Below, in pieces: positions 24,170-56,902 of a stretch of 64,000 nucleotides of DNA. The notes below the pieces were generated by a model that had not been told where the DNA came from, searched no databases, and saw nothing but the letters and a program-made list of their open reading frames with translations. Within the stretch, counting starts at the first letter, position 1. Each line of letters begins with the position of its first letter. The DNA lies in the NCBI RefSeq assembly GCF_000330885.1, contig NC_020062.1, positions 876,374 to 940,373 of the forward strand, read 5' to 3'. The DNA is from Rhizobium tropici CIAT 899. Its GTDB lineage: Bacteria; Pseudomonadota; Alphaproteobacteria; Rhizobiales; Rhizobiaceae. The position numbers were made by a program, and so were the translations under genes.

Positions 24170-24172
24170 GGC

Positions 24173-28612: not shown

Positions 28613-29800
28613 CTAGTGATAATAGCCGAGGGTTTTCAGCCATTCGTCGAAAGAGTGGCTGTTGCCGGCAGGCGTCGGCGACACGATCTGCCCGACATAA
28701 CGTGGAATGGTCAGGTTTCTGGCCTCGCGAGGGCTATAGCCGAATTCCTTGCCGAATGCCCGGCTGAAATGTGCTGCCGAGGAGAAGCCTACGGCAAAGG
28801 CGATATCGACGATCTGCTCGCGGTTGGCGGGATCACTGAGGGCCGCATGTGCCGATAGAAGGCGGCGGCGCTGGATATAGTGGTGCACCCCGCCATATTG
28901 TTCAAATATCTGATAGAGCCTCGTGCGCGATACGCCAAGCTCGCGGCATATGCGTTCGGCCGTCAGATTTTCCGAGATGAGGTTGGCTTCGACGAACCGC
29001 CGCACCCGCTCCGTCAGAGCGAGGGCGCTATGCTGTTCTGTACCGGTCGATTGAGCCGCCGAGGTCGAAACGGCTGCCACGATCATATTGCGCACTGTCT
29101 GGACGACATGGGGTAGGTCAGTGGCTGCAAGACGCGTGAGATTGTTTTCGACGCTATCGAGAAATTCGATCAGCATGTTGGTAAAGACGCCGGAGAGGGC
29201 AATATTGTTCTCGATCTCCACCGGTGTGGGAACGTCGAACAGCAATGCCCTCGGCAGAAAGAGCGAGAGAACCTTCGCCTCGGTCGAGCGCCCTCGAAAA
29301 GGGTGTCCCAGCGACCGCAATTCCACCTTGCCCGGCTCGCCATCCAGAACATGACCATCGACTTCCGTCCACGTCCGGCCGCTGGACAATACGGAAATGT
29401 GCCAGTGATCGACGTGATTGGCTTTCACTTTCGCCTGCGAGCGCATGTAACTGTGAGGCGGCGCATCCTGCTGAACGACAAGCATGCCGCCCAGATTCCA
29501 TGCTGTATGGTCTGCCGGAAAGCCGGCTTCCGGAGAGGCATTATCCGGCAGCCGGACGTCGGCCAAGGGAGCGACATAGGTCTGCCAAGCGGCAAATTGA
29601 TCGCCTGGCTCCATGCCACGTGTCGAAAATTTCAACGGCTGCAAGGCTGGCGGCGGCAGGTCGCCCTCCGTCGCTGCCTTCTCCGGCCGCGGAAAGCGCC
29701 GCCGTTCGGACTGCATGGATTTCCGGTCGCGACGCCATGACTCGTCCTGCGCCTCGTCTGATGCGGATTGGGATCGGTCTTCGCGTCGCAAATCAGACAA
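28613..29800 (-). CDS. AraC-family transcriptional regulator
   Basis: 395 residues. The C-terminal AraC/XylS DNA-binding domain (about 265-365) has two helix-turn-helix units; the second is IVDIAFAVGFSSAAHFSRAFGKEFGYSP. The N-terminal half (about 60-235) resembles the AraC-binding-2 domain of AraC-like activators such as FeaR. The first 50 residues are polar and probably disordered. Translation seems to start at TTG 29800 (GGAGAG upstream); ATG 29716 is an alternative. No obvious target is adjacent except the dipeptidase 580 bases away on the other strand. Confidence 0.85.
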   Translation of the reverse strand: MSDLRREDRSQSASDEAQDESWRRDRKSMQSERRRFPRPEKAATEGDLPPPALQPLKFSTRGMEPGDQFAAWQTYVAPLADVRLPDNASPEAGFPADHTAWNLGGMLVVQQDAPPHSYMRSQAKVKANHVDHWHISVLSSGRTWTEVDGHVLDGEPGKVELRSLGHPFRGRSTEAKVLSLFLPRALLFDVPTPVEIENNIALSGVFTNMLIEFLDSVENNLTRLAATDLPHVVQTVRNMIVAAVSTSAAQSTGTEQHSALALTERVRRFVEANLISENLTAERICRELGVSRTRLYQIFEQYGGVHHYIQRRRLLSAHAALSDPANREQIVDIAFAVGFSSAAHFSRAFGKEFGYSPREARNLTIPRYVGQIVSPTPAGNSHSFDEWLKTLGYYH

Positions 29801-30382: not shown

Positions 30383-31420
30383 ATGACCGAATCCTCGATA
30401 ATTCCCGTATTCGATGGCCATAACGACGTGTTGCTTCGGTTGCGTCGCGGTGGCTTGAATTCCGTCGATGCTTTCCTGAACGGCGAAGCTGCCGGACATA
30501 TCGACCTGCCTCGCGCGCGTCGTGGCGGTCTTGCCGGCGGGCTCTGCGCCATCTTCATCCCTTCGCCGGATCAGCCGAAGCCCGGAAATGCCGATTTTGC
30601 GACGCCCGCCCAGCCGGATGCGCTGAACGAAACCCTGGCCATGGCGCGGCTTTTGCTTGCGATCGAGGCCCGGTCGCAAGGAGCCGTAAAGGTTTGCCGT
30701 TCGGCCGCCGATATCAGGCGGTCGATTGCCGAGGGCCAGTTCGCCGCCGTTTTCCATATTGAGGGCGCGGAGGCGGTCGCGGCCGATCTCGATGCCCTAT
30801 ACGTCCTGCATCAGGCCGGTTTGCGCACGCTTGGACCTGTCTGGAGCCGCCCCAATGTCTTTGCCTATGGTGTGCCCTTCCGGTTTCCTTCGACGCCGGA
30901 TATTGGCCCCGGGCTCACCGACGCCGGCAAGGATCTGATCCGCGCCTGCAACGAGCTCAGGATCATGATCGACCTCTCGCACATGAACGAGCAGGGGTTC
31001 TGGGATATCGCCAAATTGTCGAATGCGCCGCTGGTTGCCTCGCATTCCAACGCGCATGCCATCAGCCCGCACAGCCGCAACCTGACCGACAAGCAGCTTG
31101 ACGCCATCCGCGATACCGGCGGTTTGGTCGGTATAAATTTCGGCGTGCTGTTCCTGCGTGACGATGGCATCAGGAACACCGATACGCCTCTCGAAGTCCT
31201 CGTTCGCCATGTTGCTTACATTGCCGAGCGCATCGGCATCGAGCATGTCGCGCTGGGTTCCGATTTCGATGGTACGACCATTCCGGCAGCGCTCGGTGAT
31301 GCGGGTGGCCTGCCGAAGCTGATCGACGCCTTGCGCGCGCATGGGTTTGACGCTCCCTCGCTTGCCAAGATCGCGCATCAAAACTGGCTTCGAGTCCTCG
31401 AACAGACATGGGGCGGCTAA
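30383..31420 (+). CDS. M19-family dipeptidase
   Basis: 345 residues of the renal (membrane) dipeptidase family, binuclear zinc enzymes that cleave dipeptides, including some with D-residues. Zinc ligands appear in DGHND near residues 11-15, the bridging Glu in HIEGAE near 123-128, then DLSHMN and SHSNAHAISPHSRN. GSDFDG near 293-298 is also typical. No signal peptide, so cytoplasmic. Convergent with the flavin monooxygenase gene; a hairpin overlaps its stop codon. Confidence 0.9.
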   Translation: MTESSIIPVFDGHNDVLLRLRRGGLNSVDAFLNGEAAGHIDLPRARRGGLAGGLCAIFIPSPDQPKPGNADFATPAQPDALNETLAMARLLLAIEARSQGAVKVCRSAADIRRSIAEGQFAAVFHIEGAEAVAADLDALYVLHQAGLRTLGPVWSRPNVFAYGVPFRFPSTPDIGPGLTDAGKDLIRACNELRIMIDLSHMNEQGFWDIAKLSNAPLVASHSNAHAISPHSRNLTDKQLDAIRDTGGLVGINFGVLFLRDDGIRNTDTPLEVLVRHVAYIAERIGIEHVALGSDFDGTTIPAALGDAGGLPKLIDALRAHGFDAPSLAKIAHQNWLRVLEQTWGG

Positions 31421-31469: not shown

Positions 31470-32867
31470 CTATCCGCCGCGTCTGGGAAGAGCGTTGGCT
31501 TCGCCAAGATTGCGATAGCCGGTCGCTGGATGCGGGGCTGCAAGCCGGGGTCCGCTGCCGCCAAGCTTCTCGCGCAAGGTGCCTGTGCGATACTCGGTCT
31601 TGTAGACGCCGCGCTTCTGCAGTTCCGGCACCAGAAGATCGACGGCATCCTCGAAGCTTTCGGGGGTGACGGCATAGGCGAGATTGAAGCCGTCGACGTC
31701 GGTATCCTCGATCCATTCCTGCATCAGGTCGGCAACCGTCTGTGGCGAGCCGACAAAGACCGGACCGAAGCCGCCAATGCCGACCCAATCGGCCATTTCG
31801 CGCATCGTCCATTCCTTGTCCGGATCGATGGTGGTGAAGGTCTCGACGGCCGATTGCACTGCATTGGTATAGCGATGGCGCAGCACCTCGTCGGGCGAGA
31901 ATTGGCCGAAATCGATGCCGGTCCAGCCGGAGATCAGCGCCTGCGCCCCTTCGAGCGAAACATATTGACGGTATTCGTTGAACTTGCGCTGCGCCTCGGC
32001 ATCGGTCTCGCCAAGAATTACGGTCTGAAGATTGAAGGAAAGGATTTCGCGGGGATTGCGTCCGATGCGCTCGGCTGCTTCGCGAACATTGGCGACATAG
32101 CGCTTCAGGACTGCCTTCGAAGGTGCCGCGACGAAAATACATTCGGCATGCGCGCCGGCGAAATCCTTGCCGCGGCTGGATGCGCCCGCCTGGTAAAGCA
32201 CGGGGGTACGCTGCGGCGACGGCTCGCTGAGATGAATGCCGGGCACGTTGAAATGCTTGCCGGAATGGCGGATCGGGTGCACTTTTTCCGGTCTCGTAAA
32301 GATGCCGCTCTCGCGGTCGCGAATGACGGCGTCGTCTTCCCAGCTACCCTCCCACAGCTTGTAGCAGACTTCGAGATATTCCTCGGCCAGGGAATAGCGG
32401 TCGTCATGTTGCGTTTGCGCAGACTGCCCGATGTTGAGCGCGCCGCTGTTCAAATAGGAGGTGACGATATTCCAGCCGACGCGCCCTTTCGTCAGATGAT
32501 CGAGCGTCGAGATACGCCGCGCGAAGGTGTAGGGATGCTCGAAAGAGAGCGAAGCCGTCAGGCCGAAGCCGAGATGCTCCGTCTCATAGGCCATGGTCGG
32601 GATGAGCTGCAGCGGATCGTTGACCGGCACCTGCGCCGAATGGCGCAAGGCCGCATCGACGTTGCCGTTCAGGACGTCATAAACACCAAGCACGTCGGCG
32701 ATGAACAGGCCATCGAATTTGCCGCGTTCCAGCGTCTTCGCCAGATGGACCCAGTAATCGAGGTCCTTGTAGGTCCAGGATTTGTCGCGCGGATGGCGCC
32801 AGAGGCCCGGTGACTGGTGTCCGACGCAGTTCATGTCAAAGGCATTGAGCCTGATTTCGCTTGTCAT
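31470..32867 (-). CDS. LLM-class flavin monooxygenase (NtaA/SnaA/DszA group)
   Basis: 465 residues of the bacterial-luciferase-like fold, subgroup of FMNH2-dependent monooxygenases for nitrilotriacetate, dibenzothiophene sulfone and N-acetyl-S-(2-succino)cysteine. Typical motifs are GRVGWNIVTSYLNSGALNIG near residues 128-147, QAGASSRGKDFAGAHAE near 226-242, and the C-terminal GVYKTEYRTGTLREKLG. It needs reduced FMN from a separate reductase, not encoded nearby. It starts 37 bases after the permease stop and appears to be the last gene of the ribose-type ABC operon, so the imported compound is its likely substrate. Confidence 0.88.
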   Translation of the reverse strand: MTSEIRLNAFDMNCVGHQSPGLWRHPRDKSWTYKDLDYWVHLAKTLERGKFDGLFIADVLGVYDVLNGNVDAALRHSAQVPVNDPLQLIPTMAYETEHLGFGLTASLSFEHPYTFARRISTLDHLTKGRVGWNIVTSYLNSGALNIGQSAQTQHDDRYSLAEEYLEVCYKLWEGSWEDDAVIRDRESGIFTRPEKVHPIRHSGKHFNVPGIHLSEPSPQRTPVLYQAGASSRGKDFAGAHAECIFVAAPSKAVLKRYVANVREAAERIGRNPREILSFNLQTVILGETDAEAQRKFNEYRQYVSLEGAQALISGWTGIDFGQFSPDEVLRHRYTNAVQSAVETFTTIDPDKEWTMREMADWVGIGGFGPVFVGSPQTVADLMQEWIEDTDVDGFNLAYAVTPESFEDAVDLLVPELQKRGVYKTEYRTGTLREKLGGSGPRLAAPHPATGYRNLGEANALPRRGG

Positions 32868-32903
32868 CTTGCTATTCCTGCGATTGTATCGTTCGGTCGG
32901 CGC

Positions 32904-33881
32904 TCAGGCGCCAACCGCTTTCTTGTTGACGAAGCTGAAGGCGAGCACGGCAAAGATCAGAAGCCCGGTGCCGACCTGCTGCCAGTAGAAGTTCAGGCCC
33001 GTCAGCAGCAGGCCGTTGGCGACGATGCTTAAGAGCAGAACGCCAAGCACCGTGCCGGCGACGTTCGGCCGACCGAGTGGTGAAAACGTCGTGCCGATAA
33101 AGGTGGCGCCGATGGCGTTCAGCATGAAGCCGTTGCCGGAGGAGGGGATATAGACGGTCACCGTCGCCGTCAGGATCAGCCCGGCAAAAGCGGCAATCGT
33201 GCTCGCAAGAATGAAGGTCACGGTCACATGCTTCGCCACTCCGATGCCCGAATAACGAACGGTGCGCGGCTGGATGCCGATGGCAAGCACGACGCGGCCG
33301 AAGCGCATGCGGGCAAACAGCAGTGCCGCTGCCGCGATGATGACTGCTGCGATCAGAAGCGGCACCGGAAAGCCAACAAGCGTTCCATGCCCGATAAAGC
33401 GGAATGCTGCGGGAACACCGGAGGGCGGCAGATAAACCGGATTGCCGCCATCCGTCAGGAGCTGCTGAATGCTGCGGCCGATGAACAGCGTTCCGAGCGT
33501 TGCCAGGAACGGCGATACGCCGATTGCCGAGATCAGGATGGCATTGAAGGCACCGACCAATGCGCCCGCGCCAAGACCCGCCAGGGCGGCCAGTGGTACC
33601 GGTAGATCAGCCAATATGCCGGAGACGAACGCAAAGCTTGCGAAATCCACTGCCGTTCCGACGGAGAGATCGATGCCGCCGGCGGCAACAGCGAAGGTCA
33701 TGGCGATCGAGACAATGGCAAGCAGGGTAAAGTTATTGACAAGGATGCTCTGCAGATTGCCGAGGCTGAGGAAGGTCGGCGCCACGGTCGAAAACAGCGA
33801 GAAGACGAGGACAAGGGCGACGATGAGCCCGTAGCGGGCAAGGCCAGCGAATGACCGTGTCGGGGCAATGGCAGCGGTCAC
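32904..33881 (-). CDS. ABC transporter permease, ribose type (CUT2) 2
   Basis: 325 residues with 8-10 hydrophobic segments and the BPD_transp_2 pattern of RbsC-like permeases: GGIDLSVG near residues 68-75, then GVSPFLATLGTLFIGRS. It starts at a GTG (33881) 3 bases after the other permease's stop. It forms the channel with that permease. CUT2 transporters normally import monosaccharides, autoinducer-2 or polyols. Confidence 0.9.
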   Translation of the reverse strand: MTAAIAPTRSFAGLARYGLIVALVLVFSLFSTVAPTFLSLGNLQSILVNNFTLLAIVSIAMTFAVAAGGIDLSVGTAVDFASFAFVSGILADLPVPLAALAGLGAGALVGAFNAILISAIGVSPFLATLGTLFIGRSIQQLLTDGGNPVYLPPSGVPAAFRFIGHGTLVGFPVPLLIAAVIIAAAALLFARMRFGRVVLAIGIQPRTVRYSGIGVAKHVTVTFILASTIAAFAGLILTATVTVYIPSSGNGFMLNAIGATFIGTTFSPLGRPNVAGTVLGVLLLSIVANGLLLTGLNFYWQQVGTGLLIFAVLAFSFVNKKAVGA

Positions 33882-33884
33882 GGT

Positions 33885-34904
33885 TCAGATCTCCCGTTTG
33901 CGAAGCAGTGTGGTGGCCGAAACCACGATGAGGATCAGAAGACCTTGAACCCCGCTGACCAGTGTGCTCGGCAGGTTGAGCAACTGGAAGCCATTGATGA
34001 GAAAGCCGACAAATAGCGTCGAGATCAGCGTGCCGCCGATGGTCGGCACGAGCCGGCGGGAAAACACCGAGCCGAGCAATGCGGTGACGACGACAGGAAG
34101 CAGCATCTCACCGGAGCCGGTAGTGCTGCCGCTGAGATAGGCGACGGAGAGGATGCCAGCGATTCCACCGCAGAACCCGCTCGCCACGAACGCCCCCACA
34201 ACCAGGCTCTTCAACGGCAATCCGGCGGCGCGTGCGGCCTCGGGAAACTCGCCGACGGCATAAAGCCTGAGGCCAAGCGGGGTGAATTGTACGATCGCCG
34301 TGGCGATAATGGTAAAGCCGATCAGCACATAGGCGAGGATCGGAATGCCGAACCCGTCCGACGATGAAAGTGCGGTGAGAAGGTCGGTCGAGGCCGGAAG
34401 CACGGTATTCTGCGTCAGCACCAGCTCCAGCCCGGCGACCACATTCATCACGGCAAGCGTCGCGAGCAACGGCACAATGCCCGCAAAAACGATCGCCAGC
34501 GCATTGACGATGCCGATCGCCAGCCCGGTGGCCAGCGCGGCCGCCGTGGCGACCACATCGCTAAAGCCGAGCTGAATGAGGGTGGCGTAAACTGCTGCAC
34601 TAAGCCCCATATTGGCGGCTAGCGAGAGGTCGATACCGCCGGTGACGACATTGGAGCCGCCGGCGATCAGGACGATCGTGAGGCCGATGGCAAGAACACC
34701 CGAAATGGCCGATTGCCCGAGCACGTTGCCGATATTGCCGACCGTCAGAAAATAGGGCGCCGTAGCTGCGAAAATCACCAGAATGGCTGCAAAGGCAAGC
34801 AGCGAACCGAACCGCAGGGCGGCAGCGGCAAGCTTGCCGCTGGCCGGCGACGCCTTTGTCGTCGAATTTTCGGGTAGGGAGGCAAATTGAACGTCAGCCG
34901 ACAT
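33885..34904 (-). CDS. ABC transporter permease, ribose type (CUT2) 1
   Basis: 339 residues, RbsC-like, with GGIDLSLAAN near residues 88-97 and many membrane segments. ATG 34904 has AAGGA seven bases upstream and overlaps the end of the ATPase gene by 11 bases. The first 25 residues are polar and cytoplasmic. Two different permeases with one ATPase is a common CUT2 arrangement. Confidence 0.9.
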   Translation of the reverse strand: MSADVQFASLPENSTTKASPASGKLAAAALRFGSLLAFAAILVIFAATAPYFLTVGNIGNVLGQSAISGVLAIGLTIVLIAGGSNVVTGGIDLSLAANMGLSAAVYATLIQLGFSDVVATAAALATGLAIGIVNALAIVFAGIVPLLATLAVMNVVAGLELVLTQNTVLPASTDLLTALSSSDGFGIPILAYVLIGFTIIATAIVQFTPLGLRLYAVGEFPEAARAAGLPLKSLVVGAFVASGFCGGIAGILSVAYLSGSTTGSGEMLLPVVVTALLGSVFSRRLVPTIGGTLISTLFVGFLINGFQLLNLPSTLVSGVQGLLILIVVSATTLLRKREI

Positions 34905-36444
34905 GGCGCAATCCTTCCAAGGCACCGGTCGATGCCGACAGAACTTCGTCCGTTGTCGTGTCGGAGGAGATCAGTTCGCGCGTCACGCGACCGCGAAACA
35001 GCACAAGGATCCTGTCGGTGATGCCGACAAGCTCCTGAAGATCCGAAGACAGCACGATTACGCCGGCACCGCGGGCGGCAAGTTCGCCGACCAATGTGTA
35101 GATTTCGACCTTCGAGCCGATATCGACGCCGACGGTCGGCTCGTCGAGCAGGTAGATCTCCGAGTGGCGGCTCAGCCATTTGGCAATCGCCACCTTCTGC
35201 TGGTTGCCGCCTGAGAGTGTCCGCACCAGCGCCTCGCGCCCAGCCGTCTTGATCTGCAGTCGCTTGATCAGCTCGTCGGCGTCGGCGCTTTCTCGCCTTC
35301 TGCTGAGAAAGCCGAAACGGGTATAGCGGCCGAGGCTCGACAGGGTGATGTTTTCACGGACGCTGAGCTCCAGGCCTACGCCGTGGCCGCGTCTGTCCTC
35401 CGGCACCAAGGCGATCTGATGATCGACAGCTTCGACCGGGTTGCGCGGCTTCAGGCCACGTGCATCGACATCGATCGTCCCACCTGTTGCCGCCTGCAAC
35501 CCGAACAGGGTGCGAACCAGATCCTTTGCCCCCGAGCCAAGCAGGCCCGTAATGCCGAGGATCTCGCCGCGACGCAGTGAGAGGCTGACATCGTGAAAGC
35601 GGCCTATTGCCGAAAGATTCCTGACTTTGAGGATTTCCTTGCCGAGTTCGATCTGCCGCTTGGGAAACATGTCGGCGATGTCGCGTTCGATCATCAGGTT
35701 GGCAATCTTGCCTGCCGAGATTTCGCTTGCCCTCAGAGAAGCGACATCGACACCATTGCGCAGAACCGTAACATCGTCGCACAAGGCCTCGATTTCATTG
35801 AGATAATGCGAGACGTAGATAATGGTCACGCCTTCGCTGCGCAGGCGGCGGATGAGGCGGAACAGGATCTCGGCTTCCTGGCGCACCAGCGCCGCGGTCG
35901 GCTCATCGAAGACGAGAATCTTCGGCTTATGCAGCAGCGCGCGGGTGATCTGGACGATCTGCCGTTCCGCCGTCGAAAGCTTACTGATCAGCGCGTTCTT
36001 CGGCAAATCGACGCCGAAATAATTGGCAAGGAGTTCCGCGGCCCGCCGCTGCATGGCGCCGCGGTCGAGGAAAGGCGTCTTGCCGAGGCGGGTCTCTCGC
36101 CCGAGAAAAAGCGATTCTCCGACAGTGAAGGTTGGGACCAGCAGCCGATCCTGGTGGATGAAATGAATGCCGAGCTCTTCGCACAGATGCGGCGTCAGGC
36201 GGTCATAGGCCCGGTCCTCGATCTCAATCCGCCCCTCATCCGGGGTGTGCAGACCTGCCAGTAGCTTGATCAAGGTGGATTTGCCCGCGCCGTTCTGGCC
36301 GACAAGCCCATGGACGGTGCCGCGCCTGATGGCAAGCGACGCGCCGGCCAGCGCCTGCGCGCCGCCGAAGCGTTTGACGATGCCATCGAAGCGCAGGATG
36401 TGCGACTCGTTGTCTGCTGTGGTCGCATGCTCGGCTGCGGTCAT
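34894..36444 (-). CDS. ABC transporter ATP-binding protein, double-domain (RbsA/MglA type)
   Basis: 516 residues with two nucleotide-binding domains. The first has Walker A GQNGAGKST near residues 47-55 and Walker B ILVFDEPTAAL. The second has a degenerate Walker A (GLLGSGAKD near 303), signature LSGGNQQK near 418, and Walker B IYLLDEPTVGVD. A degenerate second Walker A is normal in RbsA-type proteins. ATG 36444 gives the usual length; the frame is open further upstream into the binding-protein gene, but that part is not similar to anything. Confidence 0.9.
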   Translation of the reverse strand: MTAAEHATTADNESHILRFDGIVKRFGGAQALAGASLAIRRGTVHGLVGQNGAGKSTLIKLLAGLHTPDEGRIEIEDRAYDRLTPHLCEELGIHFIHQDRLLVPTFTVGESLFLGRETRLGKTPFLDRGAMQRRAAELLANYFGVDLPKNALISKLSTAERQIVQITRALLHKPKILVFDEPTAALVRQEAEILFRLIRRLRSEGVTIIYVSHYLNEIEALCDDVTVLRNGVDVASLRASEISAGKIANLMIERDIADMFPKRQIELGKEILKVRNLSAIGRFHDVSLSLRRGEILGITGLLGSGAKDLVRTLFGLQAATGGTIDVDARGLKPRNPVEAVDHQIALVPEDRRGHGVGLELSVRENITLSSLGRYTRFGFLSRRRESADADELIKRLQIKTAGREALVRTLSGGNQQKVAIAKWLSRHSEIYLLDEPTVGVDIGSKVEIYTLVGELAARGAGVIVLSSDLQELVGITDRILVLFRGRVTRELISSDTTTDEVLSASTGALEGLRHVG

Positions 36445-36469
36445 AAAAGAGGCCCTTCGCCTTTTGAGG

Positions 36470-36495
36470 GGCGATGCGACGGAATCCGCATCGCC
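36470..36495. terminator. Hairpin between the binding-protein and ATPase genes
   Basis: A perfect 9-bp stem (GGCGATGCG with CGCATCGCC) and eight-base loop in the 61-base gap. Without a U-run, it probably stabilises the binding-protein transcript or partly attenuates, as is common in ABC operons. Confidence 0.55.
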
Positions 36496-36505
36496 GGTTT
36501 GCGGG

Positions 36506-37513
36506 TCAGCCGATGCCGAGCTTCTTGACCACGTCGGCGATATTGCTTTTGTTTGCCAGCAGGGCAGGGACATAGGTTTCGCGTGGCAGCGTTTGCCCCG
36601 AAAGCAGCTTGGCGACGTTGCGGATGGCCGTGCGACCGATTTCCGCCGGCTGCTGGGCTGCATCGGCTCCGGCTGGCGAATTTGGATCTGCAACGAGCTG
36701 CAGCACTTCCGGGCTGCCGTCGACGCCGTAGGTGCGGATCTCGGTGCGGCCGGCGGCCGTGAGAGCCTGTGTGGCGCCGAGCTGGGGAATGTCCCAAGCC
36801 GACCAGATCGCCTTGATTGAGCCCTTCTCCGGGTATTTGTTGAGGATCGCGGTGATCTGCGCGAAGGCGTCCTGAACCGTGTTGGGAATGACATCCCGAA
36901 GTTCAGGTTGAATGATCTTCACCTTCGGAAAGTATTTGACGACATTGACGAGCTGGTCATAGCGGATCGCGCAGGGCGTTACGCCATAAAAGCCGTTGAA
37001 GACGATGACATTGCCTTCGCCGCCGATATCGGAGACGAGCTGCAGCGCCAGATCCTTGCCGATACCCCAATTGTCCGATGTGGTGTTGTTGATCGAATTG
37101 GTGGAGCCGACATCGACGGTCAAAACGGGAATGCTGGCATCGCGGGCCTTCTTCAGCCAGGGGTCGATGACGCTCAGCGTGCCGAGGATCTGGACGATGG
37201 CGTCCGGCTTCTGCGCAATCAGCGTCTGAAGCTGCGAGACAAGCTTGCCGTCGTTGCGGCCGGCATCGACGGCGATAGGCGTGCCGCCCAGCCGCTTCAC
37301 CTCGTCAATCTGCGCATTGTAGGCCTGCAGGTCGAAATAGTGGTCGGTTCCCGTCGCGCTGATAGCGATCCGCTTGCCTTTCAGCGACAACGCGTCGTCG
37401 GCAGCAGCGGCGGTCTTCGACAGAATGGTCGAGGCCGCGAGCGCCGTTCCGGCAACCGCCGTCAGTTTAAGAATATCCCGGCGTCCGAGGCCGGTCGTCT
37501 GTCCCTTGGTCAT
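36506..37513 (-). CDS. ABC transporter substrate-binding protein, ribose type (Tat-exported)
   Basis: 335 residues, Peripla_BP_4-type. The N-terminus GRRDILKLTAVAGTALAAS is a twin-arginine signal with cleavage near AAAA (about residue 37). The mature part begins LKGKRIAISATGTDHYFD and contains DVGSTNSINNTTSDNWGIG, typical of the RbsB fold. Tat export implies folding in the cytoplasm, unusual but known for some binding proteins. First gene of the minus-strand ABC/monooxygenase operon. Confidence 0.88.
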   Translation of the reverse strand: MTKGQTTGLGRRDILKLTAVAGTALAASTILSKTAAAADDALSLKGKRIAISATGTDHYFDLQAYNAQIDEVKRLGGTPIAVDAGRNDGKLVSQLQTLIAQKPDAIVQILGTLSVIDPWLKKARDASIPVLTVDVGSTNSINNTTSDNWGIGKDLALQLVSDIGGEGNVIVFNGFYGVTPCAIRYDQLVNVVKYFPKVKIIQPELRDVIPNTVQDAFAQITAILNKYPEKGSIKAIWSAWDIPQLGATQALTAAGRTEIRTYGVDGSPEVLQLVADPNSPAGADAAQQPAEIGRTAIRNVAKLLSGQTLPRETYVPALLANKSNIADVVKKLGIG

Positions 37514-37941
37514 GAAAGCATCCTCTCCAGCAATTCACAAATGCCAATAGAATATAAAATAGGTAGATTTAAACGATTTGCGGGAGAAACGTTTTTCCAA
37601 AACTGGTGCGGCAGGGGAAATTTCCGTCATTTGCCTTTCTAATGTACAGATCGGGTTTCCACAGCCCGCGTGACGATCGTTAGCTTTACGGTCACTTTTC
37701 GGATGCCGGTCTATCGCCCCTCAGCCATTGACCCGCGTGGACTGCCCGCGAGATTGCGCGATCTTTTAGGCAAGCCCTTGCCGCCAAGCCTTCCCGTCGC
37801 GAACAAAGAATCTCCGAAGGCGGCCAAAATCAGATGAATTAATCTACTAAAAACATAGAGTTTCTATCTAAATAATTGCATGCGTCGCAGGGTCCTCATT
37901 CCGTCAGACGACGCTTCCGATTGATCGTGAGGATCGCGACA
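37514..37941. other. 428-base divergent promoter region of the ABC/monooxygenase cluster
   Basis: An AT-rich region between the two divergent binding-protein genes with no supported gene. It contains the near-palindrome at 37583-37598, and ATAGA-GTT-TCTAT at 37855-37867, about 75 bases before the plus-strand ATG. Both could be regulator sites. No regulator gene lies within this cluster. Confidence 0.5.
37583..37598. promoter_or_regulatory. Near-perfect 16-bp palindrome GGAGAAAC-GTTTTTCC
   Basis: One mismatched pair in 16 bases, centred on CG as in many LacI-family operators, 70 bases upstream of the Tat binding-protein start. A candidate operator for the divergent cluster. Confidence 0.4.
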
Positions 37942-38985
37942 ATGAAATTTCTCACACGGCTTGCCCTGACGGCCGTTGCTCCTCTTCTTCTTACGCAGGC
38001 TGCGCTGGCTGGCGGTGTGAGTGGCGCTCCAGCGCCCTTTGATAAGGGCGGCGTGAAGATCGCCTTGATCAGCTACATTTCCGCCGGCGACTTCTTCCAG
38101 GCCTATCAGGCCGGCGCAGAAGCTCAGGCAAAGGCACTCGACATCGATCTGCGCGTCTTCCCCGGCCGCCAGGATGCGGCTGCGCAGCGCGAGCAGATCC
38201 TCCAGGCGATCAATCTTGGTGTCTCCGCCATCGTTATCGATCACGGCCTGCCGGAATCTCTCGGCGATGTCGTTCAGCAGGCGCTCGACAAGGGCATCAA
38301 GGTCGTTGCCTTCGACGTCAATCTCAACAATCCCAAGATCCCTCAGGTCGAGCAGAGCGATCATGAGCTTGCCGATCTCGCGCTGAAGCAGGTCGTCAAG
38401 GACAACGGCAGCAGCTTCAAGGCAGGTTATGTCTACGTAGCCGGTTTTGCGCCGCTCGATCGCCGCAACGAGGTCTGGGACACGTTCAAGAAGCAGAATG
38501 CAGGCGTCGTCGAAAAGGCTCGCTTCGGCAATGTCAGCGATACGACGGCGACCTCGACTGCGGACCAGGCAAAGGCGGCGCTGACGGCCAATCCCGACAT
38601 ATCAGTCGTTTTCGCACCCTATGACGAGTTCGCGCGCGGCGTGAAGCTTGCTGCGACGGATCTCGGCATCACGGGCAAGCTGAAGATCTATTCGGCCGAT
38701 GTATCGACGGCCGACATTCAGGAAATAACCGAACCGGGTAGCCCGTGGGTTGCGACGGTAGCGACCAATCCGGCTGTCGTTGGTGCGGTTTCCATCCGAG
38801 CCGCCGCTTTGCAGGTGGCGGGCCAAGAAGTTCCGCATCAGATCACCGTCAAGCCGACGCTGCTGACGCAGGAAGGGCTTCGCGCCGCCAATGTCCGGAC
38901 GATCGAGGAGCTGGCCAAGAAAGTTCCGGCCTTCAACGCAAGCGATGCGGTCACCGCCAGCTGGATACCGGAGAAGCTTTTCTAA
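37942..38985 (+). CDS. ABC transporter substrate-binding protein, ribose type, second copy
   Basis: 347 residues with a Sec signal peptide (cleavage near ALA, residue 23) and a Peripla_BP_4 fold starting VKIALISYISAGDFFQAY. ATG 37942 has GAGGA eight bases upstream. It is divergent from the Tat-exported paralogue, and no second permease or ATPase set is nearby. The two binding proteins may therefore share one membrane complex, giving it two ligand specificities. Downstream, after a hairpin, comes the DszC-like gene. Confidence 0.88.
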   Translation: MKFLTRLALTAVAPLLLTQAALAGGVSGAPAPFDKGGVKIALISYISAGDFFQAYQAGAEAQAKALDIDLRVFPGRQDAAAQREQILQAINLGVSAIVIDHGLPESLGDVVQQALDKGIKVVAFDVNLNNPKIPQVEQSDHELADLALKQVVKDNGSSFKAGYVYVAGFAPLDRRNEVWDTFKKQNAGVVEKARFGNVSDTTATSTADQAKAALTANPDISVVFAPYDEFARGVKLAATDLGITGKLKIYSADVSTADIQEITEPGSPWVATVATNPAVVGAVSIRAAALQVAGQEVPHQITVKPTLLTQEGLRAANVRTIEELAKKVPAFNASDAVTASWIPEKLF

Positions 38986-39003
38986 GCAGCTGTCCACGAT
39001 CCG

Positions 39004-39030
39004 CCGGCGAGAGTTTCTTAATCTCGCCGG
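39004..39030. terminator. Hairpin after the second binding-protein gene
   Basis: A perfect 9-bp stem (CCGGCGAGA with TCTCGCCGG) and nine-base loop in the 70-base gap before the DszC-like gene. No U-run, so partial attenuation or 3'-end protection is likely. Confidence 0.5.
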
Positions 39031-39055
39031 ACTACGTCCATGAACCGGAGTTCAT

Positions 39056-40264
39056 ATGATGAGTCAGTCCAACGTCGTCTTTGCGGGCAGCCGAAACGCC
39101 ACGCGGGAAGACCTTTTTGCCCGAGCGGAAGAGATTGCCGCCGATCTTTCCAAGCGCGCTCCAGAACTTGATCGCGAAGGCCGTCCACCGCTCGGCGAAA
39201 TCGTCAAGCTGAAGAATGCGGGCCTGCTGAACGCCTTGCATGCTGCCCCGGTTGGCGGCGGCGGCCTCGATTGGGTGGATGGCTTGCGGTTGGTGCGCAT
39301 CCTTGCGCGCGGCGAAAGCTCCATTGGCCAGCTTCTCGGCTATCACTACGTCAACAGCCAATATGTCTATTGGGCCTTCGAGGAGGCGCGTGCGCAGGAG
39401 CTCGGCAACAAGACGGTGGCAAACAGCCTCTACTGGGGCGCAGCCGTCAATCCGCGCGATCCGGGCCTCGTGTTGACGCGCCGTGGCAATGGCTATGTTC
39501 TGAACGGCCGCAAATCTTTTTCCACAGCCGCTCACGTGTCGGATTACATCAACGCCAATGCTGCCCTTGATGACAAGATTGTCGGCTTTGCCGTCCCGAC
39601 CAATCGGGCCGGTTACAGGGCCAATGACGATTGGGACAATTTCGGCCAGCGACTGTCGGACAGCGGCAGCGTCGAATTCCACGATTTTCCCGTCTATGAA
39701 GAGGATCTGGACAGGGCAGCAACCGTCGGTGGCGAAGCGCCGGTGCTCGCGACTTTCAATACGCCCCTCATCCAGCTCGTTTTCGTGAACTTCTATCTCG
39801 GAACGGCCGAGGGCGCATTGCGAGAGGCGGTCGATTATGTCCGTACCACGACGCGGCCCTGGATCACCTCCGGTGTCGAGCGCGCATCGGACGATCCCTA
39901 TATTCTCGAGCGTGTCGGCGAGTTCACTGCGGCCTTGAAGGCTTCCGCTGCGCTGGCCGACAGCGCCGCGGCAACGGTGCAGGAGGCGCTTGCGAGAGGA
40001 AGTCGGGCAACGGCGCGTGAGCGTGGCGAGGCGGCGGCCGAAGCCTATGCGGCGAAGGTGCACGCGACCCATGTTTCGCTCGATATCACCTCGCGCGTCT
40101 TCGAGCTCACCGGCGCCCGCTCGACCGCGGAGAAATATCGTTTCGACCGCTTCTGGCGCAATGTACGGACGCACACCCTGCACGATCCGGTCTTCTACAA
40201 GGCCAAGGAAGTCGGGGAGTTCGTGCTGAACGACCGGATTCCCGAAGTCAGTCTCTACAGCTGA
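39056..40264 (+). CDS. Acyl-CoA dehydrogenase-fold monooxygenase (DszC/SfnB-like)
   Basis: 402 residues of the acyl-CoA dehydrogenase superfamily, in the branch used as FMNH2-dependent oxygenases in sulfur acquisition (SfnB, DszC). Signatures are DDWDNFGQRLSDSGS near residues 180-194, RPWITSGVERASDDPYI near 263-279, and RFWRNVRTHTLHDPV near 363-377. Such enzymes oxygenate sulfur or nitrogen atoms rather than desaturate acyl-CoA. It is cotranscribed with the second binding protein, which points to an imported substrate. Confidence 0.85.
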   Translation: MMSQSNVVFAGSRNATREDLFARAEEIAADLSKRAPELDREGRPPLGEIVKLKNAGLLNALHAAPVGGGGLDWVDGLRLVRILARGESSIGQLLGYHYVNSQYVYWAFEEARAQELGNKTVANSLYWGAAVNPRDPGLVLTRRGNGYVLNGRKSFSTAAHVSDYINANAALDDKIVGFAVPTNRAGYRANDDWDNFGQRLSDSGSVEFHDFPVYEEDLDRAATVGGEAPVLATFNTPLIQLVFVNFYLGTAEGALREAVDYVRTTTRPWITSGVERASDDPYILERVGEFTAALKASAALADSAAATVQEALARGSRATARERGEAAAEAYAAKVHATHVSLDITSRVFELTGARSTAEKYRFDRFWRNVRTHTLHDPVFYKAKEVGEFVLNDRIPEVSLYS

Positions 40265-40632
40265 CACAAGGGCGAGGACGTGGCGCAGTCTAAAAAGGGC
40301 ATAGGCTCATAATCTCCGCTGGTGCTGACTTCACCTGTACTCAAGATCGGTCAGCGTCATTTATATCCGAGGTGGTGTGGGCCAGGGTTGGAACACACCA
40401 CAGCTTCAAGCAGGCTCGCCGATTGTGGCCTTTACGCAATGCTGGATGATTGATGTTTCAATATCCGGCTTACAAATCCTGTGCTCAACTCATTATTCTG
40501 TGGAGGGTTGCCGGCGCATGCCGCAATCCGCACACGTTCCTCATTAGGATCTCTTCGCTCACGAATCGTTTTCAACCTCCAGAAGGGCAGGCGATCTCGA
40601 TTGAGAATGAAATCGATCCAATGGAGTCCTTC
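40265..40632. other. 368-base leader upstream of the ftsZ homologue
   Basis: No supported gene. The ftsZ frame is open back to 40450, but the extra residues have no FtsZ similarity. I see no clear hairpin or promoter boxes. The region probably carries the ftsZ homologue's promoter and a long 5' leader. Confidence 0.45.
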
Positions 40633-41640
40633 ATGGCTGACACGCGCGCACCACTTTCCGGGGTGATACCGGAGATTTCTGTCGTCGGTGTCGGCGGTGG
40701 CGGCGGCAACGCGATCAACAATATGATCGCGCAACAACTTCAGGGCGTTGAATTCATCGCGGCAAACACGGATGCGCAGGCGCTTGCGACGTCCAAAGCC
40801 AACAGGCGCATTCAACTTGGCGCACAGGTGACGGAGGGCCTCGGTGCAGGCTCCCTGCCGGAAATCGGACGAGCCGCCGCCGAGGAATCCATCGATGAGA
40901 TCATGGATCATCTCCAGGGCACGCACATGTGCTTCGTGACGGCCGGAATGGGCGGCGGCACCGGTACGGGCGCCGCGCCGATCATCGCTCAGGTCGCGCG
41001 GCAGGCGGGCATCCTCACGGTCGGCGTCGTCACCAAGCCCTTCACGTTCGAGGGCAACCGGCGCATGCGCACGGCCGACGAGGGCATCGAGCGACTGCGC
41101 GAAAGCGCGGACACCGTTATCGTCATTCCCAATCAGAACCTGTTTCGCATTGCGGACGCCACGACCACCTTCGCAAACGCCTTTGTGACTGCAGACCGCG
41201 TCCTTTATGCGGGCGTCAGCTGCATCACGGACCTGATCATCAAGGAAGGTCTCATCAATCTCGACTTCGCCGATGTCAAATCCGTGATGCGGGGAATGGG
41301 ACGTGCGATGATGGGAACGGGCGAAGCTTCAGGACCGGGCCGCGCGTTGAAGGCGGCAGATGCCGCAGTCTCCAATCCGCTTCTGGACGACATGAGCATG
41401 AAGGGCGCGCGGGGCGTGCTGATCTCCATTTCCGGCGGAACGGACATGACGCTGTTCGAGGTCGATGAGGCCGCCAGCCGTATCCGCGACGAAGTTTTTG
41501 CCGATGCCGATATCGTCGTCGGTGCGATCTTTGACAAGAATCTCGACGGGGTGTTCAGGGTATCGGTCGTTGCAACCGGTCTGGAAAGTCTCGCGGCGTC
41601 CGCTGGTCAGCCCATGGAAACCAATATGGACCGGCACTAA
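40633..41640 (+). CDS. ftsZ2: FtsZ2: short FtsZ homologue without C-terminal tail
   Basis: 335 residues of tubulin/FtsZ GTPase. The GTP-binding signature is GGGTGTG at residues 107-113, and the T7-loop motif NLDFAD at 209-214 supplies the catalytic aspartates, so GTPase function looks intact. The protein ends at the end of the GTPase fold. It lacks the variable linker and the conserved C-terminal peptide that bind FtsA, ZipA and other partners. This matches FtsZ2 of Sinorhizobium meliloti, which also lacks the tail. No ftsQA neighbours. ATG 40633 (GGAG upstream) is preferred over ATG 40621. Confidence 0.88.
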
Positions 41641-41682
41641 TTGGCTTCAGCGTGGCGCTTGGATCTGTGCCTTTGATTGTGT

Positions 41683-41695
41683 GAAAGCCCCGTCG
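41683..41695. terminator. Left arm of a terminator hairpin split by the IS
   Basis: GAAAGCCCCGTCG here pairs with CGACGAGGCTTTC at 43146-43158 (12 of 13 positions). If the IS and one target copy are removed, the arms close on the loop CGGG, forming a bidirectional terminator between ftsZ2 and the convergent SfnB-like gene. Confidence 0.8.
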
Positions 41696-41699
41696 CGGG
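41696..41699. repeat. Target-site duplication CGGG, left copy
   Basis: CGGG directly precedes the left inverted repeat; an identical CGGG follows the right one at 43142-43145. Confidence 0.8.
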
Positions 41700-41726
41700 T
41701 GAACTGACCCCGTAAAGTTGGACGGT

Positions 41727-42620
41727 TTATTGGCTTGGCTGATTTAAGGGCTGGGTCCTGTATTGAACAGGGCTCAGCCCTTTAAGCTTTAGCCTGATGC
41801 GATCGTTGTTGTAATATCGGATATAGTCCTCGACACCATCACGCAGGCTTTCGATGCTGTCGAAGTGGTTGGGATAAAAGAACTCGGATTTGAGGGTGGC
41901 GAAGAAGCTCTCCATGGCGGCATTGTCGAGGCAGTTGCCTTTGCGTGACATGCTTTGGGCAATGTTGCGGCTTTCAAGCATTTGGCCCCAGGCCGGCATC
42001 TGATATTGCCATCCCTGATCGGAATGCAGGATCGGCCTCTCGGCATTGCAGAGTTGGTCCAGGGCCTTGTCCAGCATGTTCTTGACCAACGAGAAGACAG
42101 GCCGCCTAGCCGTCTCGAAGGCAACGATCTCGCCGTTGTGGAGGTCCATGACCGGCGAGAGGAAGAGTTTTTGGCCGGCGATGTTGAACTCGGTGACGTC
42201 CGTCACCCATTTCTGATGCATACGCTCGGCGGTGAACTGCCGCTGAAGGAGGTCCGGGGCCACGCGTCCCGTCTGCCCCTTGTAGGAGCGATACTTCTTC
42301 GGCCGGACCAGGGACTTCAATCCCATCTCGATCATCAGACGCTGGACGGTCTTGTGATTGACCGTCTGCCCGAGGGTGCGGATCGCAGCCGTGACCCGAC
42401 GATAGCCATAGCGCCCCTTATGGGCTTCGAAGATCGCTTTGATCCTGGTCTTCAGCGCTACATGCCGATCGGCCGGGGACGAGACCTTCTGCTGATAATA
42501 GAACGTGCTGCGGGCCAGGCCCGCAAGCTTCAGCAGACCGTCGAATGGATAGAGCGGCCTTAACGCCTGGACGGCTTGCGTCTTGTCGGCGCTTGTCGTG
42601 CCTGCGTTAAGGCTTCCAGT
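41727..42620 (-). CDS. IS3-family transposase OrfB (frameshift-expressed)
   Basis: About 297 codons in the frame entered by -1 slippage; the part after an in-frame ATG at 42335 is 202 residues. The DDE integrase core is complete: Asp in WVTDVTEF, Asp in ILHSDQGWQYQ, Glu in NAAMESFFATLKSEFF. Upstream, GLARSTFYYQQ and KGRYGYRRV are typical OrfB N-terminal motifs. It is translated as an OrfAB fusion after slippage at the A7 run (42620-42626). Confidence 0.92.
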   Translation of the reverse strand, partial: TGSLNAGTTSADKTQAVQALRPLYPFDGLLKLAGLARSTFYYQQKVSSPADRHVALKTRIKAIFEAHKGRYGYRRVTAAIRTLGQTVNHKTVQRLMIEMGLKSLVRPKKYRSYKGQTGRVAPDLLQRQFTAERMHQKWVTDVTEFNIAGQKLFLSPVMDLHNGEIVAFETARRPVFSLVKNMLDKALDQLCNAERPILHSDQGWQYQMPAWGQMLESRNIAQSMSRKGNCLDNAAMESFFATLKSEFFYPNHFDSIESLRDGVEDYIRYYNNDRIRLKLKGLSPVQYRTQPLNQPSQ

Positions 42621-43096
42621 TTTTTTAGATAGGCATTCTCCATACGCAGATAGGCCAGCTCCGCCAGGAGTTCCTCGCGGCTCTTGGCCTCATCGCTCTG
42701 CGGGGCATCCGTCTTGTCGGACAGCACAGGTGGCTCGGGCATCGATCGGGGCCTTCCTCGACGACGTGGCATCAGGGCGTCAATACCACCGGCCTTATAG
42801 CGGCGCTCCCAATCCGGCAGGCAACTCTTATTGCGCAGGTTGAACAACGCCGCCGTCCGACGGTAAGAGAGCCCATCCTCCCACATCCGGCGCAGAACCG
42901 ATAGCTTGAACTCAGCAGTGTAGTGGCCGAACTTCCTGACCAGACCGTCAACTCCATGCGCCGCGTGCATCGCAACCCATGTGCGCACCGTCGAATGCTC
43001 GATCCCAAAATACGCACTCACCTCCTGCAGGCTGCGCGCGCCGCCGCCATAAAACGCCACAACACTCTGCTTGAACGACGTGCTGTATTTCGACAT
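42560..43096 (-). CDS. IS3-family transposase OrfA
   Basis: 178 residues with two helix-turn-helix parts: LQEVSAYFGIEHSTVRTWV near residues 20-38 and LSYRRTAALFNLRNKSC further on. Near the C-terminus a leucine-rich coiled coil (LLAELAYLRMENAYLKKLEAL) mediates oligomerisation. ATG 43096 is used; an upstream TTG lies within the inverted repeat. It overlaps OrfB, which starts by slippage in this coiled-coil region. Confidence 0.9.
   Translation of the reverse strand: MSKYSTSFKQSVVAFYGGGARSLQEVSAYFGIEHSTVRTWVAMHAAHGVDGLVRKFGHYTAEFKLSVLRRMWEDGLSYRRTAALFNLRNKSCLPDWERRYKAGGIDALMPRRRGRPRSMPEPPVLSDKTDAPQSDEAKSREELLAELAYLRMENAYLKKLEALTQARQAPTRRKPSRR
42620..42626 (-). other. Programmed -1 frameshift slippery site (A7)
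   Basis: Seven consecutive A on the coding strand, read CTA AAA AAA CTG in OrfA. A -1 slip gives AAA AAA ACT and enters the OrfB frame, which stays open to 41727. This is the standard way IS3 elements make the OrfAB transposase. Confidence 0.85.
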
Positions 43097-43141
43097 GCAA
43101 AACCCCCGATGTTGGTGGTCCAACTTTCGGGGGTCAGTTCA

Positions 43142-43145
43142 CGGG
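43142..43145. repeat. Target-site duplication CGGG, right copy
   Basis: Directly follows the right inverted repeat and is identical to the left copy at 41696-41699. Confidence 0.8.
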
Positions 43146-43158
43146 CGACGAGGCTTTC
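43146..43158. terminator. Right arm of the split terminator hairpin
   Basis: CGACGAGGCTTTC is complementary, with one mismatch, to the left arm at 41683-41695. It lies 9 bases from the stop of the SfnB-like gene, which now lacks its hairpin. Confidence 0.8.
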
Positions 43159-43167
43159 GTCTATCCG

Positions 43168-44385
43168 TTAAAGCGCGCCATTCTTCGGCGGAATGACGTC
43201 GTTGAGGTGATAATTGCCGACGACGTGATATTTCCAGCGGACGGGGTCATGAAGCGTATGCGTGCGGGCATTGCGCCAGTGGCGATCGAGATTGAGATCC
43301 AGCTTGACCGAGGCCGTGCCGGCGAGCTCAAACAGCGTGTTGGTCGCTTCGATAGCGATTTCCGTTGTCAGCACCTTTGCGGCCGCCACCGCGAGTGTCG
43401 CCTCGACGACCCTCTTTTCTGTTGTCTCGACCTGGGCGGCGTCGACCTTGCGACCGGCACGCTCGACGGTCGCGGTTGCGGCTTCCAGCCGGACGGCGAT
43501 CTGCCCGATCTTGGCGATTGTCAGCGGATCGTCGCTCGCCCGCTCTACGCCGCTATCCATCCAGGGGCGCGATCGGGTCTTCACGAAATCAAGCGTCTCG
43601 GCAAAGGCTGCCCGGGCGATGCCGAGATCGACACCCGCATGGATGATCTGGCCGACGGAGCCGATCGTCGTCGGTCGTTCGAAGCCTTTGTGGTGAAGAA
43701 CGACATGGTCGGCATTCACATAGACATTGTTGAGGACCGTGGTGCCGCTACCGGTCGTGCGCTGCCCGAAGCCATCCCAATCGTCAATGATTTCGATGCC
43801 TTCCGTTCCCTTCGGGACGAAGGCCATGACCAGCTTGTCGGCTTCGTCAAGCGCGAAGACGGTGATCCAATCTGCAAAGAGGACGCCTGTCGAATAGAAC
43901 TTTCGGCCATTGATGCGATAGCCCGGACCATCGCGGGTGATACGCGTATCGTAATGCCCGACCGTCTTCGTGCCGCGCTCGGAAAGAGCGTTGCCGAAGC
44001 GATCGCCGGCCAATGCGCGCCCGAAGAAATAGCGCTTCTGATCTTCCGAACCGTCGACGCGCAAGGCTTCGAGGATGTAGAAGTGGTTCTGCGGGATCTG
44101 CCCGATCGAGCCGTCGGCCTGGGCGAGCGTCGCCGTGATTTCCGCCAAGGTGGCATTGGAGACATCCAGGCCGCCATGCTCCTCGGGAACCGTAATTGCC
44201 AGCAGCCCGGATTGTGCCAGCGCATCCATCTCGGCAAAGGGAAGCAGCCTCTCGCTATCGCGCTCCGAGGCGGTGGCGGCAAAACGCTGGGCCAGCTCCT
44301 GCGCAACGGCCAGCGCCTGCTGTTCGGTCTCCAGCACGGTGGCCTCAGGATGCGTGGCGTTAATATGGTGCAGTTGCGCGTTCAT
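43168..44385 (-). CDS. SfnB/DszC-like monooxygenase, second copy
   Basis: 405 residues of the acyl-CoA dehydrogenase superfamily. Motifs are DDWDGFGQRTTGSGTT near residues 197-212, RPWMDSGVERASDDPLT near 280-296, and RHWRNARTHTLHDPVRWKYH near 380-399. The last resembles the SfnB consensus more closely than does the copy at 39056. SfnB takes part in use of dimethylsulfone-type sulfur sources and needs FMNH2. GGAG lies eight bases before the ATG. It is convergent with ftsZ2 across the IS. Confidence 0.87.
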   Translation of the reverse strand: MNAQLHHINATHPEATVLETEQQALAVAQELAQRFAATASERDSERLLPFAEMDALAQSGLLAITVPEEHGGLDVSNATLAEITATLAQADGSIGQIPQNHFYILEALRVDGSEDQKRYFFGRALAGDRFGNALSERGTKTVGHYDTRITRDGPGYRINGRKFYSTGVLFADWITVFALDEADKLVMAFVPKGTEGIEIIDDWDGFGQRTTGSGTTVLNNVYVNADHVVLHHKGFERPTTIGSVGQIIHAGVDLGIARAAFAETLDFVKTRSRPWMDSGVERASDDPLTIAKIGQIAVRLEAATATVERAGRKVDAAQVETTEKRVVEATLAVAAAKVLTTEIAIEATNTLFELAGTASVKLDLNLDRHWRNARTHTLHDPVRWKYHVVGNYHLNDVIPPKNGAL

Positions 44386-44496
44386 AGGCGGGCTCCGATT
44401 TCATTTGGCGCCACGATGCCGCATTCAAAGCCGGGCTTCGAGAAAAGGCATTTCATTTTTGAAGATGTCGTCGCTTCTTCATTCCTTTCTCTATAG

Positions 44497-44511
44497 AATT
44501 GATAGTCAATT
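44497..44511. promoter_or_regulatory. Palindrome AATTGA-TAG-TCAATT
   Basis: A perfect 6-3-6 inverted repeat in the likely promoter of the second SfnB-like gene. Candidate regulator site; regulator unknown. Confidence 0.35.

Positions 44512-55324: not shown

Positions 55325-56902
<1,578 letters not shown>

Follow-up and report, generated by a model that had tools for sequence, protein, structure and literature searches.

Genes at the locus

The stretch analyzed here (the window) comprises 64,000 nucleotides of Rhizobium tropici CIAT 899 (NC_020062.1, positions 876,374 to 940,373); its contig, C4, is 2.08 Mb long and one of four in a 6.69-Mb genome (G000). Our subject is a divergent cluster at 31–44 kb in which an ATP-binding cassette (ABC) importer of the CUT2 sugar type stands beside flavin monooxygenases; very probably it is a module for sulfur scavenging that includes this importer. 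An earlier note made from the sequence alone had described seven divergently arranged genes, and this arrangement was confirmed: all seven are open reading frames (ORFs) at the coordinates of Table 1, with clear family matches in profile searches. The importer, with its substrate-binding protein SBP1, and a DmoA-type luciferase-like monooxygenase (LLM) form one co-directional run, and the divergent pair consists of a second binding protein (SBP2) and a DszC-like enzyme. The same note had read the enzymes as a DszA/DszC-like two-enzyme pathway. An FMNH2-dependent organosulfur module stands, but the count of two does not, as the SfnB gene had been missed; the module holds three flavin enzymes, because SfnB belongs to it. 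At two comparison loci, L006 (R. tropici) and L147 (Rhizobium sp. CCGE531), the SfnB gene directly adjoins the DszC-like gene, and in the window the two are split by an insertion of ~2.9 kb (40265–43169) that is absent from both. Against these two loci, the ratio of nonsynonymous to synonymous substitution rates (dN/dS) is 0.03–0.10 for the seven genes, SfnB and an M19 dipeptidase gene, indicating purifying selection.

Table 1. Genes and predicted operator sites of the 31–44 kb region (window positions).
Feature	Position	Strand	Evidence or remark
LLM flavin monooxygenase, NtaA/DmoA subfamily	31470..32867	-	TIGR03860, 578 bits (cut-off 279.7)
CUT2 permease B (RbsC type)	32904..33881	-	BPD_transp_2
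CUT2 permease A (RbsC type)	33885..34925	-	BPD_transp_2
CUT2 tandem ATPase (RbsA/AraG type)	34894..36444	-	family match; ORF opens at 36894, start placed at internal Met 151
SBP1, binding protein of twin-arginine translocation (Tat) type	36506..37513	-	Tat-like GRRDILKL read directly in the sequence
Weak operator match, 14.2 bits	37551..37567		38 bp upstream of SBP1
Palindromic operator (predicted) TCTACTAAAAACATAGA	37843..37859		between SBP1 and SBP2
SBP2, second binding protein	37942..38985	+	ORF from 37876
DszC/MsuC-like flavin monooxygenase	39056..40264	+	below DszC and SfnB equivalog cut-offs
SfnB sulfur-acquisition oxidoreductase	43168..44385	-	TIGR04022, 610.8 bits (cut-off 430.9)
Palindromic operator (predicted) TCTATAGAATTGATAGT	44490..44506		105 bp before SfnB; top-scoring site of the 64 kb

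The LLM, 97% identical to an R. tropici LLM, has DmoA (PDB 6ak1) as its closest solved relative, with 54% identity over 451 residues, and keeps 18 of the 20 DmoA binding residues named in PMC9259527; G231S and L367F differ. According to that paper, no methanethiol was obtained from recombinant DmoA proteins, including that of Hyphomicrobium, for which the lack of a suitable reductase is suggested as the reason, so that sequence is a poor guide to activity in the DmoA family. Because the LLM belongs to the same subfamily as NtaA, the pathway might instead degrade an aminopolycarboxylate or another nitrogen compound, as NtaA or EmoA do; among solved structures, however, DmoA and LadA are closest, NtaA and EmoA are much weaker (198 and 182 vs. 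556 bits), and the partners are sulfur-type enzymes, which leaves this reading highly improbable. Another conceivable role is the release of sulfite, as by SmoC, from sulfoquinovose or a related sulfonated sugar or polyol that the importer brings in. The combination of a sugar-type importer with a C–S-cleaving flavin enzyme does resemble the idea of a sulfoquinovose monooxygenase, which has reportedly been published, but the LLM sits in the NtaA/DmoA branch, far under the alkanesulfonate monooxygenase cut-offs (NF001939, 68.9 vs. 510 bits; TIGR03565, 67.5 vs. 518.2 bits), and we hold such a role to be distinctly unlikely. For the DszC-like enzyme, 8cda, DszC and MsuC are nearly equal matches (262, 251, and 244 bits), and it falls under the cut-offs of both the DszC model NF043015 (282.1 vs. 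850 bits) and the SfnB model TIGR04022 (252.5 vs. 430.9 bits). Two more LLM + SfnB modules, with other ABC importers, occur in the same genome (L126 on C3; L128, C4:1808000–1826000), their LLMs being 64 and 53% identical.

The gene downstream of the LLM is a gamma-glutamyltransferase in Rhizobium sp. T136 (L132:4883–6667) and an M19 dipeptidase in the window, L006 and L147; both are candidates that could act on glutathione conjugates. As a core part of the module the M19 dipeptidase (30383–31420) was rejected, since beyond the window it was found only in L006 and L007, among 80 loci, and in L147. The insertion at 40265–43169 holds an ftsZ-like gene (401.5 bits, above its cut-off) and an insertion sequence element with 41-bp inverted repeats (41683–41723 and 43118–43158) and integrase-core and helix-turn-helix genes.

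Recurrence of the cluster and a shared palindrome

The genome-neighborhood comparison proposed in the earlier note found the gene set co-occurring elsewhere. We measured linkage in 297 Rhizobiaceae genomes that were not chosen by LLM, counting any LLM match at E ≤ 1e-100 and any partner within 15 kb. SBP1 (at least 78% identity) occurs in 22 of these genomes, with the LLM nearby in 18, the DszC-like gene in 17, and one or the other in 19. The three without either are G029, which is fragmented and glycerol-linked, and G017 and G247, where SBP1 stands alone; G009 lacks the LLM only. More distant SBP1 homologues (53–60%) had no LLM nearby (0/8). Seen from the other genes, the LLM accompanies 19 of 22 DszC-like genes (at least 66%) and 12 of 19 SBP2 genes (at least 76%; 14 of 19 if the DszC-like gene also counts), and LLM genes at 85% or more have SBP1 near in 10 of 14 cases and the DszC-like gene in 13. 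In 8 of 20 regions drawn, the SBP1 importer is followed by a co-directional SfnB gene, and in L132, L141, L146 and L079 by a co-directional LLM.

We also compared 80 named LLM loci, 20 alphaproteobacterial (L006–L024 and L068) and 60 gammaproteobacterial, the latter with at most 10 kb of flanking sequence retrieved. The alphaproteobacterial loci include the SBP1 importer in 11 cases and SBP2 (at least 77%) in 15. Only three of the gammaproteobacterial loci, all from Pseudomonas (L065, L072, and L079), have an SBP1-type importer beside the LLM, and these combine it with SfnB or SfnB-like genes; in L047 and L053, fragments of permease genes lie at the edge of the locus. SfnB (at least 44%) lies in the flanks of 33 of the 60, a count that rises to 57 when SfnB-like, SsuD-type and MetQ-type clusters are added (L028, L029, and L057 have none).

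Comparison of the SBP1–SBP2 intergenic region across relatives revealed a palindrome, TCTAY-N7-RTAGA. In its simple form, TCTA-N8..10-TAGA, it was counted 30 times in 883,702 bases (42 loci), and 28 of the 30 lie close to a cluster-gene start. The 13 sites used to train a scoring matrix came from neither the window nor L006, L147 or the rest of this genome, although the motif was first noticed in the scanned loci themselves and the 37843 site has an ortholog among the training sites (in L132). The two best matrix sites of the 64 kb lie before SfnB (44490) and SBP2 (37843), with a weak third before SBP1 (37551); a score of 19 bits was reached in one of 100 simulated windows. The matrix gave 46 hits in these 42 loci, and 42 of the hits precede a cluster gene, a proportion that is partly circular because 9 of the 13 training sites come from the rescanned loci. 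A site precedes SBP2 in 19/23 cases, SBP1 in 18/29, the SBP2-type ATPase (ATP') in 15/23, LLM in 4/38, SfnB in 3/30 and the DszC-like gene in 2/28, and in the same scan none of the internal importer genes (ATPase, permease A, permease B; 0/29 each) has one upstream. Across the 297 genomes, counted on both strands and with some training genomes included, the pattern outnumbered its reversed control 198 to 49 in the 52 genomes with the LLM, vs. 245 to 234 in the 245 without it.

Twenty stretches were chosen around sites from the listed part of this count, which held none from the window's own genome; three of the stretches came from LLM-less genomes (L165 from G051, L166 from G107, and L167 from G218). 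The 20 flanking proteins include three each of LLMs and NMT1-type binding proteins, one NlpA/MetQ-type, one SBP_bac_3 and one SBP_bac_5 protein, one FMN_red protein, two LysR regulators and one 2-oxoglutarate-dependent oxygenase; the FMN_red protein and one LysR come from LLM-less genomes. Three are unlike sulfur genes (HlyD, carboxymuconolactone decarboxylase, and argininosuccinate synthase, the last of which is not transcribed from the site) and four had no match. NMT1 is a Pfam family of sulfonate-type binding proteins that also holds others. In this genome, sites precede an LLM paralogue (L126:14309, 17.9 bits), a gene 63% identical to the flanking FMN reductase (L126:1037, a weaker 14.2 bits) and an operon carrying an SBP2 relative (L125:7893; discussed below), as scored with a matrix that included the window's and L125's own sites. 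Since the palindrome elsewhere precedes monooxygenases, NMT1-type binding proteins, FMN reductase and LysR genes, its presence before SBP1, SBP2 and SfnB supports a predicted sulfur regulon that links these genes with sulfur-type genes of relatives. It is probably a LysR-type operator; LysR genes lie beside the site in L163, where the gene is divergent from an LLM, and in L165, with no LysR gene common to the module's loci.

The earlier note had found neither a flavin reductase nor a regulator nearby. On the first point, no PF01613 flavin reductase is present in the window (PF03358-type FMN reductases lay outside the genome-wide search), and the nearest of seven in the genome, at C4:838336, is ~69 kb from the LLM. 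The relative of FMN reductase preceded by the L126:1037 site may be a supplier of FMNH2 in trans. On the second the note was partly right: no LysR, AraC or LacI regulator is common to the 101 loci searched, but an AraC-type gene does lie in the window (28613–29800), with counterparts in only L006 (81%) and L147 (79%) of those loci. Sigma-54 (−24/−12) promoters were also considered and rejected (29 matches vs. 30.4 expected by chance).

Binding proteins, ligand and proposed function

The importer has the components of the CUT2 class, namely a Peripla_BP_4 binding protein, a tandem ATPase and BPD_transp_2 permeases. No named CUT2 model for ribose, xylose, arabinose, allose or autoinducer-2 was above its equivalog cut-off among the matches listed (which for the ATPase were the top 25 of 189); permease B, for example, reached 138 bits with the ribose model (cut-off 398). 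SBP1 is 86% identical over 300 residues to 4wt7 (Avi_5165 of Agrobacterium vitis, allitol-bound), a structure found through a fold ranking that, given a poor SBP1 model (predicted local distance difference test score, pLDDT, 63), was used for that and for numbering only. All five polar contacts of 4wt7 (H61, R89, R187, D268, and Q290) are kept in SBP1 (H58, R86, R184, D265, and Q287) and are invariant in 12 of 12 aligned sequences, the window included; these contacts were given for a docking of sorbitol into the allitol pocket and are transferred with a register of +3 at which residue types agree. In a tree of 32 SBP1 sequences, 4wt7 falls among sulfur-linked Rhizobiaceae proteins, with a glycerol-linked pair and a lone pair as small groups, proportions that are biased because many rows were picked through the LLM.

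The best fold match of SBP2 is titled a 5-methylthioribose binding protein (4ry8, TLET_1677 of Thermotoga lettingae). The earlier view of one importer with two binding proteins is only partly supported. The window, L006 and L147 have no SBP2-type ATPase–permease pair, but in relatives SBP2 has its own: such an ATPase and/or permease is near SBP2 in 10 of 11 SBP2-bearing loci drawn (the exception is L006) and likewise in the annotated records of R. johnstonii 3841 and Rhizobium sp. T136. A second, SBP2-type importer is thus kept in relatives and lost in this lineage. From the missing pair, SBP2 might be taken for a decaying leftover of the lost importer with no function here, but its dN/dS is 0.04 between lineages that all lack the pair, and its promoter has a conserved operator; we think this very unlikely. 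Elsewhere in the genome, an ATPase–permease–SBP2'–LVIVD operon (C4:1615091–1620063; L125:8092–13064) encodes an ATPase and a permease 67 and 77% identical to the SBP2-type set along with its own binding protein, and because this related set exists, SBP2 may use either it or the SBP1 importer. SBP2-like proteins of 51–58% occur in many Rhizobiaceae genomes, and a relative of the LVIVD beta-propeller protein (L018) has a weak match, below cut-off, to SBP56, which is a methanethiol oxidase.

Classical 5-methylthioribose salvage appears to be missing, because the models for 5-methylthioribose kinase (TIGR01767) and MtnA (TIGR00512) had no match in the genome; the methylthioadenosine phosphorylase model reached 96.5 bits, below its cut-off of 274.85. 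The abstract of PMC4958253 describes the use of methylthioadenosine as a sulfur source in Rhodospirillum rubrum by another route.

Our best explanation for the whole, to which we give a probability of roughly one half, is that the cluster scavenges sulfur under low sulfate from a ribo-configured thio-sugar or polyol by means of the importer and the flavin enzymes. The importer would take up a sugar- or polyol-like thioether of ribo configuration, the DszC-like enzyme would oxygenate the sulfur, giving a sulfoxide or sulfone, cleavage of the C–S bond would fall to the LLM, and SfnB with unlinked enzymes would move the released C1-sulfur fragment toward sulfite. FMNH2 would come from a reductase encoded elsewhere, possibly the FMN_red-like gene at G000:C3:34088–34609. 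Regarding the parts, an importer inside an organosulfur module, as first suggested, holds well for the CUT2 importer, which recurs in Rhizobiaceae and at three Pseudomonas loci and, in Rhizobiaceae, has an operator in common with sulfur-type genes; that its cargo is an organosulfur compound we only lean toward. Within that, a compound of 5-methylthioribose type is the foremost candidate, named tentatively. Just as speculative is the wider notion of an oxidative salvage of 5-methylthioribose-type thio-sugars, with CUT2 importers and ribo-specific binding proteins supplying a DszC-like S-oxygenase and a DmoA-like C–S lyase under one sulfur-responsive palindromic operator, in bacteria without the 5-methylthioribose kinase route.

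Several observations weigh against this explanation. The ligand in 4wt7, a protein with 86% identity to SBP1, is allitol, a sulfur-free compound, and SBP2 shares just 36% identity with 4ry8. The SBP1 importer adjoins glycerol genes, with no LLM, on a plasmid of R. leguminosarum OyaliB and in G029, stands alone and operator-free in G017 and G247, and is matched by 23 Rhizobium plasmid records without an LLM at the same place (surroundings examined in one record). SBP2'-type proteins are present in many genomes without an LLM match. Gammaproteobacterial LLMs adjoin other importers (e.g., L058), so the LLM substrate need not be a sugar. As for the operator, lone SBP1 copies score 5.0 bits, those of L007, L019, L137, L141 and the three Pseudomonas loci stay below 11, and some LLM-less genomes have many sites (G107, 7 vs. 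0 in the control; G155, 9 vs. 1; also G147 and G218).

Alternatively, within a sulfur-scavenging module, the enzymes might act on small organosulfur compounds needing no CUT2 importer (e.g., dimethyl sulfide or methanesulfinate), while the importer would take up an ordinary sugar alcohol and merely share regulon and location. The allitol in 4wt7 and the five retained contacts, the glycerol genes of OyaliB and the 54% identity of the LLM to DmoA all fit such an arrangement. On the other side, SBP1 is linked to the LLM or the DszC-like gene in 19 of 22 genomes, in a sample not chosen by LLM, and it has the module's operator even in two glycerol-linked copies (L131, 21.7 bits; L136, 27.1 bits, the latter a training site). 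On balance we regard a separate sugar-alcohol importer as rather unlikely and retain thio-sugar or thio-polyol scavenging as the working explanation.

Soil sulfur is largely organic, and to our knowledge few importers for sugar-like organosulfur are known. A sugar-class importer in a sulfur regulon would mean that some rhizobial and pseudomonad “ribose transporters” are misnamed; the palindrome allows further regulon genes to be predicted, and allitol and 5-methylthioribose, as ligand clues, narrow the candidate ligands to a short list.

Elsewhere in the window are a CmlA/FloR-family efflux transporter (50882–52078; 633 bits vs. 450, under the stricter FloR cut-off at 612.6 vs. 700), two beta-lactamase-fold genes (45718–46911 and 47006–47899) adjoining a LysR regulator (48070–48945), and a 3-oxo-tetronate kinase (541 bits vs. 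350) with an adjoining 3-hydroxyisobutyrate-dehydrogenase-like gene (22895–25081), a pair for acid-sugar catabolism. An arabinosylfuranosidase ArfA (55394–56902; 898 bits vs. 625) lies upstream of an oligopeptide-type ABC importer whose subunits are below cut-offs, and a further luciferase-like monooxygenase (52182–53204) reaches none of the cut-offs of the listed NCBIfam models.

Comparison with known systems

Judged by titles and abstract openings, with supplements outside the scope, no publication on this gene set or operator was recognized. The nearest relatives by arrangement are the sfn/msu/ssu clusters of Pseudomonas and enterobacteria, which likewise bring an LLM, an SfnB-type enzyme and an ABC importer together at one locus; unlike in those clusters, the importer here is of the CUT2 sugar type, seen in just 3 of the 60 gammaproteobacterial loci apart from the edge permease fragments in two. 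The LLM resembles DmoA (6ak1) in its 54% identity over 451 residues and 18 of 20 named binding residues, and differs in G231S and L367F, in having an ABC importer and DszC/SfnB partners as neighbors, and in a window without a PF01613 reductase. The DszC-like enzyme matches DszC and MsuC (3x0x and 6u76) over nearly its full length (251 and 244 bits), yet lies far under the DszC equivalog cut-off (282 vs. 850). SBP2 has 36% identity to the 5-methylthioribose binding protein TLET_1677 (4ry8), and SBP1 is 86% identical to the allitol-bound Avi_5165 (4wt7), which itself groups with the sulfur-linked SBP1 proteins of Rhizobiaceae.

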